This document shows, piece after piece, positions 30,196 to 34,221 of a stretch of 34,221 nt of DNA. The stretch lies in contig CALHRD010000029.1 of the NCBI GenBank assembly GCA_938038385.1, positions 1 to 34,221 of the forward strand, in the 5' to 3' direction. Positions within the stretch are counted from its first letter, which is position 1. The number at the start of each line of letters is the position of its first letter. The notes below the pieces were generated by a model, which made no database searches, was not told where the DNA came from, and worked only from the letters and a program-made list of their open reading frames with translations. A program made the position numbers and the translations under genes. This DNA comes from an uncultured Burkholderiales bacterium (GTDB lineage: Bacteria > Pseudomonadota > Gammaproteobacteria > Burkholderiales > Thiobacillaceae).

Positions 30196-33100
30196 ATGCC
30201 CGACCGCACCGCTGAACTGCAGGCCCTTGCCGCCCGCCGCATCCTGATCCTGGACGGCGCCATGGGCACCATGATCCAGCGCCTGAAGCTCGCCGAGGCC
30301 GACTATCGCGGCGCGCGCTTCGCCGACTGGCCGCGCGACGTGAAGGGCAACAACGACCTGCTCACCCTGACCCGGCCGGAGGCGATCCGCTCGATCCATG
30401 CCCAGTACCTGGAGGCGGGGGCGGACATCCTGGAGACCAATACCTTCAACGCCAATGCCGTGTCCATGGCCGACTACGGCATGGAGGCGCTGGTCCACGA
30501 ACTCAATTACGAAGGGGCGCGGCTGGCGCGTGCGGTGGCCGACGAGTTCACGGCACGCACGCCGGACAAGCCGCGCTTCGTGGCCGGCGTGCTGGGGCCG
30601 ACCTCGCGCACCCTGTCCATCTCGCCGGACGTGAACGACCCTGGCTTTCGCAACATCAGTTGGGAGGCGCTGGTCGAGACCTACCACGTCGCCGCCGACG
30701 GCCTGATCAAGGGCGGCGCCGACCTGCTGCTCATCGAGACGGTGTTCGACACCCTGAACGCCAAGGCGGCGGTGTTCGCCCTGCACAAGTACTTTGACGA
30801 CACGGGCGAACGGCGGCCGATCATGATCTCCGGCACCATCACCGACGCCTCGGGCCGCACCCTGTCCGGCCAGACCGCCGAGGCGTTCTGGAATTCCCTG
30901 CGCCACGCCCAGCCCTTTTCCTTCGGCTTCAACTGCGCCCTGGGGGCGAAGGAGCTGCGCCCGCACGTCGAGGAGATCGCGCACAAGGCCGACGTGTTGG
31001 TGAGCGCTCACCCCAACGCGGGGCTACCCAACGCCTTCGGCGAGTACGACGAAACGCCGGAGGCGATGGCCGCCCAGATCGGCGAATGGGCCCGCTCCGG
31101 GCTGCTCAACATCGTCGGCGGCTGCTGCGGCACGACGCCCGAGCACATCCGCGCCATTCACGACGCGGTGGCCGGCTGCGCCCCGCGCGCGCTGCCGAAG
31201 ATCGCGCCAGCGCTCAGACTGGCTGGGTTGGAGCCGTTCAACGTCGGCGAGGGGTCGCTGTTCGTCAACGTCGGCGAGCGCACCAATGTCACTGGTTCGG
31301 CCAAGTTCAAGCGCCTGATCCTGGAGGGCAAGTACGACGAGGCCCTGGAGGTGGCCCGCCAGCAGGTGGAGTCGGGCGCCCAGGTGATCGACGTCAACAT
31401 GGACGAGGCCATGCTCGACGGCGAGGCGGCCATGACCCGCTTCCTCAAGCTGGTCGCCTCCGAGCCGGACATCGCCCGCGTGCCGGTGATGATCGACTCG
31501 TCCAAGTGGTCGATCATCGAGGCGGGTCTGAAGTGCGTGCAGGGCAAGCCGATCATCAACTCCATCTCGCTCAAGGAGGGCGAGGCGGACTTCAAGGCCC
31601 GCGCGTGGCTCGCCCGCCGCTACGGCGCGGCGGTGATCGTCATGGCCTTCGACGAGCAGGGCCAGGCCGACACCTACCAGCGCAAGATCGACATCTGCGC
31701 GCGCGCCTACCGCATCCTCACCGAAGAGGTCGGCTTCCCGGCCGAGGACATCATCTTCGACCCGAACATCTTCGCCGTGGCCACCGGCATCGAAGAGCAC
31801 GCCAACTACGCGGTGGACTTCATCGAGGCCACGCGCTGGATCCGGCAGAACCTGCCGCACGCGCACGTCTCCGGCGGGGTGTCCAACGTATCCTTCTCCT
31901 TCCGCGGCAACGAGCCGGTGCGCGAAGCCATCCACACCGCCTTCCTCTACCACGCCATCCAGGCCGGCATGGACATGGGCATCGTCAACGCGGGGCAGCT
32001 CGGCGTGTACGAGGAGATCCCGGCCGAACTCCGCGAGCGGGTCGAGGATGTGCTGCTCAACCGCCGCCCGGACGCCACCGAACGCCTGGTGGAATTCGCC
32101 GAGACCGTGAAGGGCGGCGCGAAGGAGGCGGTCGAGGACCTGGCCTGGCGCAACGCGCCGGTCGAGGCGCGGCTCACCCATGCCCTGGTCAAGGGCATCA
32201 CCCAGTACATCACCGAGGACACGGAGGAGGCGCGCGCCAAGCTCGGCCACCCCATCCGGGTCATCGAGGGCCCGCTCATGGACGGCATGAACGTGGTGGG
32301 CGACCTGTTCGGCTCCGGCAAGATGTTCCTGCCGCAGGTGGTGAAATCAGCCCGGGTCATGAAGAAGGCAGTCGCCTACCTGCTGCCCTACATGGACGCC
32401 GAGAAGGAAGGCGATGTCAGCAGTAATGGACGCATCCTCATGGCCACCGTGAAGGGTGACGTGCACGACATCGGCAAGAACATCGTCGGCGTGGTCCTGC
32501 AATGCAACAGCTACGAGGTCATTGACCTCGGTGTCATGGTGCCCGCGGAGACCATCCTGAAGACAGCCCGCGAAAAGGACGTCGACATCATCGGCCTGTC
32601 CGGCCTGATCACACCGTCACTCGACGAGATGGTTCACATTGGCAAGGAGATGCAACGTCTGGGCATGGACCTGCCGCTGCTGATCGGTGGCGCCACCACT
32701 TCGCAGATTCACACCTCGGTGAAGATCGATCCGCAGTACCGCGGTGCGGTGGTGTATGTCGCTGATGCCTCGCGCGCCGTCGGCGTCGCCAGCAAGTTAC
32801 TCAGCGCAGACAACCGCAAGGCCTATATCGCCGGCATCAAGGAACGTTACCAGGATCTGCGCGAGCAGCGCGCCGGCCAGCAACAGGCCAGGAAACTGGC
32901 AAGCCTTGCCGAGGCGCGCGCCAACCGTTTCCAGACCGACTGGGCCAGTTACAAACCGGCGCCACCCGGCTTTCTGGGTATCAGGGTCTTCGCTGATTAC
33001 CCGCTTGCAGAACTGGTTGATCGTATCGACTGGACACCGTTCTTCAAGGCCTGGGAACTGGCCGGCAAGTTTCCCGGAATTCTCGACGACGAGGTGGTCG

Positions 33101-33879
33101 GCAAGGAGGCAACGCGGCTGTTTGCAGATGCCCGTGCCATGCTCGACAAAATCGTTCGCGAAAAATGGCTGACGGCCCGTGCCGTGATCGGTTTCTTCCC
33201 GGCCAACACCACCGCTGAGGACGATGTCACGCTCTACACAGATGATTCACGCACCGAGGTACAGAGCGTTTTTCACTTCCTGCGCCAGCAGATGAAGCGC
33301 CGCAACCAGGCACCGAATCATTCACTTGCAGACTTCATTGCACCCGCAGACTCCGGCGTAAAGGACTACCTGGGCGCCTTCGCCGTCACGGCCGGTATCG
33401 GCATCGATGCCAAGGTCGCCGAGTTTGAGGCCGACCACGATGACTACAGCAGCATACTGCTAAAAGCACTGGCCGACCGGCTCGCCGAGGCCTTTGCCGA
33501 GCGCATGCACGAACGCGTGCGCAAGGAGTTCTGGGGCTACGCCAGCGCCGAGAACCTGGATAACGCGGAACTCATCAAGGAGGCGTACCGGGGTATTCGA
33601 CCGGCACCCGGTTACCCGGCCTGCCCGGACCACACCGAGAAAGACATTCTCTGGGAACTGATCGACCCGGTAAGCAACGCCGGTATCTCGATCACGGAAA
33701 GTTTTGCCATGATACCCACGGCATCCGTGTCCGGTTTTTATTTCGCACACCCCGAGGCGCGCTACTTCGGCACTGGCAAGATTGCACGCGACCAGGTCGA
33801 GGACTATGCCGCCAGGAAGGGCATGAGCATTGAAGACGCCGAGCGCTGGCTGGCCCCGGTGCTCGGTTACGACAACTAG
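30196..33879 (+). CDS. metH: B12-dependent methionine synthase
   Basis: 1227 residues, the same length as E. coli MetH. Domains in order: homocysteine-binding with zinc ligands including Cys310-Cys311 (V-G-G-C-C-G-T-T), pterin-binding ([20 protein letters not shown]), cobalamin-binding ([11 protein letters not shown] with the axial His757), and the SAM-binding reactivation domain ending A-P-V-L-G-Y-D-N. It transfers the methyl group of methyltetrahydrofolate to homocysteine via methylcobalamin. ATG 30196 is chosen over an upstream TTG (30187). TACAAT at 30162-30167 may be the -10 box. There is no room for a cobalamin riboswitch in the 116-base upstream gap. Base composition drops within the gene after about 32,350. 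Confidence 0.97.
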
Positions 33880-33902
33880 ACTTCTCTTGCTGACTCGATC
33901 GT

Positions 33903-34044
33903 GTCATTCCCGCGCAGGCGGGAATCCAGCCCTTGTTCGAGGCGTGGTGCCAGATTTCCTGGATTGATTCGCTTCGCTCACCCAGCGGGCCGCCCCTCGG
34001 GCGTTCAACGCGCAACGCGCTTTTGTCCCGCGTGCGGGAATGAC
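33903..34044. repeat. Inverted-repeat element of the ATTCCCGC type
   Basis: Ends are GTCATTCCCGC (33903-33913) and its exact complement GCGGGAATGAC (34034-34044), 142 bases overall. Each end is itself a hairpin: ATTCCCGC-GCAG-GCGGGAAT on the left and TCCCGC-GT-GCGGGA on the right. The interior has no gene. This looks like a small non-autonomous dispersed element, sitting 24 bases after metH. Confidence 0.75.
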
Positions 34045-34088
34045 GTGTTATAGATTGCCCGGCAGTCTCTTTATTCCAGGCAGCCCCA

Positions 34089-34221
34089 TTACTCGATCTT
34101 GATATAGGCAAAGCCCTGGTGCTGCAGCTCCGCAATACGCACCACGCCGGACGGCACGGCCTCGACCCCGCCATACAGCTTGTCTGCTGACAGCTTGATT
34201 TGTGAACGGGTGATATCACAC
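34089..34221 (-). CDS. Unidentified gene, C-terminal 43 residues only
   Basis: Reading the minus strand from the window edge, one frame stays open and ends at TAA (34091-34089). The peptide contains I-T-R-S-Q-I-K-L-S-A-D-K-L-Y-G-G-V-E-A-V and ends Q-H-Q-G-F-A-Y-I-K-I-E. It looks like a real protein end with ordinary amino-acid use, but I do not recognise the family. A competing open frame on the same strand (33692-34219) runs through the repeat element into metH and is low-quality, so I reject it. Its composition matches the lower-GC tail of metH. Confidence 0.5.
   Translation of the reverse strand, partial: CDITRSQIKLSADKLYGGVEAVPSGVVRIAELQHQGFAYIKIE

Follow-up and report, generated by a model that had tools for sequence, protein, structure and literature searches.

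The change of base composition inside metH near the end of the window (34,221 nucleotides, the entire contig C29 of assembly G000, which holds 2.56 Mb in 140 contigs) is very probably an inter-genome translocation misassembly, which sequence comparison lets us view from both sides. We propose that the host has one metH, which would share a short exact stretch of its B12 cap region with the metH of bacteria from another family present in the sample. An assembly path through this shared stretch would have been resolved crosswise, so that the host 5′ half on C29 was led on into a 3′ half of foreign origin and the host 3′ half, on contig C9, received a foreign 5′ piece. That the join was made in assembly or scaffolding and not in a cell we infer, as we do the k-mer or overlap length involved. 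The features to which the text refers are as follows.

29695..30081, no strand: native block upstream of metH, a marker of the native locus; 6 of 10 relatives carry all or some of it on their metH contig, ahead of the gene
30187..32277, forward strand: native 5′ part of metH (host species); 85-87% nucleotide identity to G001-G003, 87% to G011; f1 in trees (residues 516-697); GC3 94%
32278..32313, forward strand: 36-base stretch identical in C29 and C9 (exact match), the likely join place in both
32314..33879, forward strand: 3′ part of metH, foreign, derived from a bacterium that resembles G183 and belongs to another family; 96% nucleotide identity to G183:C293 (32604-33925); in trees with G183, support 100/99
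33880..34088, no strand: foreign spacer that contains repeat arms of the ATTCCCGC...GCGGGAAT type; its two flanks match G183:C293 at 96% and 92%
34089..34220, reverse strand: foreign partial gene, truncated by the contig end so that its last 43 residues are left; 100% amino acid identity to G183:C293:4857-4985

The Third Codon Positions of metH Change at Codon 720

The metH frame (30187-33879, forward strand) is open over its full length, in agreement with the original prediction. The best GC3 change point lies at 32344 (codon 720), with 94.3% before and 75.5% after it, and its log-likelihood gain of 45.2 compares with a maximum of 8.9 in 2000 permutations; the composition shift that had been read inside metH is therefore far beyond anything the permutations produced. 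Overall GC is 67.1% in 1-30186, 68.1% in 30187-32343, 60.4% in 32344-33879 and 58.8% in 33880-34221, and the lowest value among 1536-base windows starting before 30,000 is 63.0%. The four 60-base counts given earlier were exact (66.7, 66.7, 56.7 and 53.3%). The A/T-ending codons named with them all become more frequent after 32344 (AAA from 0 to 7, TTT from 3 to 8, GTA from 1 to 3, ATA from 0 to 2), as does TCA (0 to 4), and the shift does run on, as had been claimed, into the repeat and the partial gene, which are foreign and G183-like. At the 500-base scale the tail has 59.2-61.4% GC and is matched elsewhere in the contig (59.8% at 13001-13500, 61.2% at 15501-16000), so that GC alone is no proof; the proof comes from the codon-position signal together with kinship.

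The Two Sides of C29 Have Different Relatives

Among 31 genomes, the own included, 30187-32340 is 85-87% identical in nucleotides to the same-genus G001-G003 and 87% to the same-family G011. The identity of 32344-34221 to G001-G003 is only 68-72%, and the best family relative by score gives 71% over 1467 bases, with short pieces elsewhere reaching 77%; over long matches the foreign 3′ part of metH has 66-71% identity to the host's own genus and family. We then searched 32278-34221 against 369 genomes drawn evenly from the class, the own included, of which 92 matched at E 1e-120 or better. The closest was G183 of family f167, with 96% identity over 1322 bases, followed at 77% by its congener G294; the remaining long matches were at most 72%, and four matches of about 500 bases reached 79-80%. 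Because the G183 contig starts at 32604, the assignment of 32314-32603 as foreign rests on G294 (77%) and on the trees. The downstream partial gene is 100% identical over its 43 amino acids to G183, in the same convergent order, and 84% to G294. Together with the 96% nucleotide identity, this gene order makes the tail of C29 a piece of a G183-like chromosome. The partial gene matches Pfam DsrE weakly (E 0.083, below the cut-off), and an NCBIfam profile search gave no match for 34089-34220.

The spacer differs from that of G183. On C29 (33925-34026) it is about 100-120 bases longer than on G183:C293 (L133) at 5036-5053, the difference lying between two ATTCCCGC/GCGGGAAT repeat arms, and G183 has a single palindrome at the corresponding place. 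This looks like the gain or loss of one repeat unit, presumably of REP type, between close species. The 27-base repeat arm at 33903-33929 recurs in many host-family genomes.

Ordinary compositional variation within a native gene would need no second organism. The 3′ half of MetH is indeed less conserved than the 5′ half in 80 named loci, and other 500-base windows of C29 also drop to 60% GC, but native relatives hold a high GC3 through the 3′ half (0.91 in G003, 0.96 in G011) and the C29 3′ half is 96% identical to the genome of another family. We give this explanation practically no credence.

Contig C9 Carries the Mirror Image

G000 has a second metH piece on C9, where the contig end cuts the gene at residue 516; in the whole assembly, only these places on C29 and C9 match a MetH protein at E 1e-5. 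The GC3 of the C9 piece is 0.61 for residues 516-697 and 0.93 from about residue 710 on. By E-value among the 369 class genomes, G000 apart, its foreign part is closest to f167 (G294, 79%, E 2e-131; next 7e-106), and 16 of the 23 genomes within f167 match it, the closest being G408 with 81% over the joined query. The native part is 80-89% identical in amino acids to the metH of G001, G002, G003, G005, G011, G013 and G016.

We compared the surroundings of metH in 10 relatives of the host. The C29 upstream block, metH and the C9 downstream genes stand on one contig in five of them (G002, G003, G005, G013 and G016), including the single-contig genome G005. The C9 side is present in G001 and G011, each on a contig that breaks off within metH; G006 carries C9 sequence close to metH without the C29 upstream block; G009 has the upstream block and a different C9 stretch (2149-2638) behind metH; and G017 has neither at metH. 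These comparisons support C9 as the native continuation of the C29 metH, carrying a reciprocal chimera at the same place. As the 3′ metH part and its neighbours are native, we rejected the view that C9 is simply a contaminant contig or holds a paralogue.

The original prediction had offered homologous recombination as one of two sources of the shift, with the 3′ half of the host metH replaced by that of a lower-GC relative. A sharp switch inside a conserved stretch with the frame intact agrees with such a replacement. However, the foreign tract takes in the gene downstream of metH in the donor and stays foreign as far as the contig end, so that native DNA flanks it on one side within a view that ends at 34221. 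On C9 the assembly retains the native 3′ half together with its native neighbours, and the reciprocal junction there is not expected from a one-way replacement. We consider recombination a very improbable origin and set that part of the prediction aside.

Phylogenies Place the Halves in Different Families

Trees were built for residues 516-697 (41 rows) and 710-1230 (42 rows) and repeated with 19 and 20 rows; G183, whose assembly is without the first of these parts, is absent from the residues 516-697 tree. In that tree C29 groups with G011 of f1 and C9 falls inside f167. For residues 710-1230 the placement is exchanged, with C29 beside G183 in f167 (support 100/99) and C9 with G011 in f1. A constraint that placed the foreign piece within f1 (5 rows) was rejected with p-AU values of 5e-13 and 3e-7, and one that held C29 and C9 together was rejected in both segments (2e-6 and 3e-112). 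L003 (Betaproteobacteria bacterium) lies inside the host family in both trees, and f167 lies among gammaproteobacterial records. The separate phylogenies that had been proposed as a check of the shift hence place the two halves with different families, f1 and f167.

The Switches on C29 and C9 Fit One Range of 54 Bases

To place the join we used diagnostic sites, defined as positions at which none of the 7 native relatives has the base of the contig. On C29 there are 12 such sites in 31740-32277, ending at 32156; 32278-32313 has none and 32314-32479 has 22. C9 has 113 (the last at 32259), none in 32278-32313 and then 4 (the first at 32409). C29 therefore turns foreign in 32157-32313 and C9 turns native in 32260-32408. 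The range common to both switches is 32260-32313 (54 bases) and contains the 36 identical bases 32278-32313. A longer exact match between the two contigs, 42 bases at 32458, lies in a conserved motif further down, outside this range. Two points call for caution. The base at 32314 sets C29 apart from all native relatives but is also uncommon in the donor family, where 7 of 8 genomes have the native base, and not until 32365 does a site match all 8 donor-family genomes and none of the 7 native relatives.

In the hybrid frame the cap domain PF02607 covers residues 660-732 and the cobalamin-binding fold PF02310 residues 748-839, so that the join region falls in the cap part, immediately ahead of the cobalamin-binding fold. 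The original prediction, which had the shift begin around 32,350 at the cobalamin-binding domain, was close for the GC3 change point at 32344; the join itself lies slightly upstream, best at 32260-32313 in PF02607.

The 36-mer is unchanged in the native relatives G003 and G011, in G400 of the donor family and in G157 of another family, and also occurs in 3 of the 80 named metH loci, one of them labelled Saprospiraceae. The G183 assembly is without the junction region, and it is G400 that shows the 36-mer in the donor family. As a stretch common to both families, it is a natural place for a tangle in the assembly graph. The largest k of common assemblers exceeds 36 bases, which counts against a misjoin here; with so short an exact match, only a small k, low coverage or scaffolding would have produced the error.

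Both Foreign Pieces Stop at Contig Ends

The foreign pieces end at contig ends, 1.9 kb (C29) and 0.55 kb (C9) from the join. With ends placed uniformly, the chance of both lying so near is about 0.003. A MetH search of G000 at E 1e-5 did not find the donor metH 5′ end, nor was the donor's next 4.8 kb found in G000, where only 175 bases of the neighbouring 5 kb, already in the window, are present. The donor neighbourhood otherwise matches G000 at 66% over about 740 bases on C46 and in short segments that do not exceed 201 bases. The assembly is rated 92.17% complete and 0.03% contaminated; this contamination score counts against a misjoin, although a piece this small would not necessarily affect it.

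Two species of one family, f167, seem to have supplied the foreign pieces. Their GC3 differs (110 of 182 codons on C9, 396 of 521 on C29, p 8e-5), and in the 8 f167 members with both segments GC3 differs between segments by at most 0.08. The C9 foreign piece groups with G408 and G417 and the C29 foreign piece with G183, whose assembly, without that metH part, gave no match to the C9 foreign piece. The single-donor placements tried gave nominal p-AU values of 0.04 and 0.006, with groups chosen after the first trees were seen. A single donor for both pieces is thus rather disfavoured: both lie in f167 but differ in grouping and GC3. An origin from two species speaks against an exchange in one cell.

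A real reciprocal exchange, by inversion or translocation, in one genome with the native and an acquired second metH would make both hybrids real, and the two junctions, reciprocal and fitting the same 54 bases, are in keeping with it. Yet it needs a second metH, and DNA searches found one metH place each in G001-G003 (two of them only 84% complete); in addition, the foreign pieces stop at contig ends, the donor flanks are absent from G000 and the pieces seem to derive from different species (on the GC3 and p-AU values above). We hold such an event to be most unlikely, and see equally little chance that a genuine exchange at the 36-base identity in a living cell gave two inter-family hybrid methionine synthases.

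For the preferred misassembly, the sequences left and right of the point group with different organisms, another contig of the assembly (C9) holds the native continuation, and the breakpoint falls in sequence common to the families of both sides (36 bases; G003, G011, G400). The other source offered at the outset, a chimeric contig with its join in the conserved B12 region, is the one that these observations and the reciprocal chimera on C9 bear out. Judged from the sequences, the metH hybrid of C29 is almost certainly an ordinary assembly artefact and not a real feature.

Implications for Metagenome-Derived Genes

A genome with near-zero measured contamination thus includes an in-frame, full-length, high-scoring hybrid that no organism is likely to possess, and such hybrid genes would pass for recombination in surveys of gene mosaicism. 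To recognize such errors without reads, one may search the other contigs of the bin for the mirror-image junction. A non-exhaustive literature search did not find metH described as a site of assembly chimeras.

Contigs end inside metH in many other metagenome assemblies, namely G001:C49, G007:C57, G012:C81 and C78, G024:C96 and G011:C207, and also G183:C293, G409:C305, G413:C58, G414:C27, G415:C63 and G416:C54. It is as if the long, conserved metH often breaks metagenome assembly, and other contigs ending in metH may carry similar chimeras. G010, a member of the host family, has two overlapping metH copies (C103:93-2647 and C32:9379-12284), each 79% identical to the C29 5′ part; one of the copies may stem from a second strain or from a further misjoin.

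Compared with known MetH proteins (TIGR02082, NF007024), the hybrid is alike in its five ordered Pfam domains (PF02574, PF00809, PF02607, PF02310, PF02965) and in scores far above the curated cut-offs (2193 bits against 1497 for NF007024, and 1768 against 1011, in the TIGR02082/NF007024 profile search), so that annotation gives no warning. It differs in joining residues of two organisms, and the deposited hybrid probably corresponds to no real protein. In the metaMIC publication (PMC9661791), an inter-genome translocation misassembly unites two pieces of distinct genomes at a single breakpoint. C29 resembles that description, with fragments of two genomes and a single breakpoint; it differs in that both crosswise products were binned in one genome (G000), which makes the native gene recognizable in two pieces without reads.
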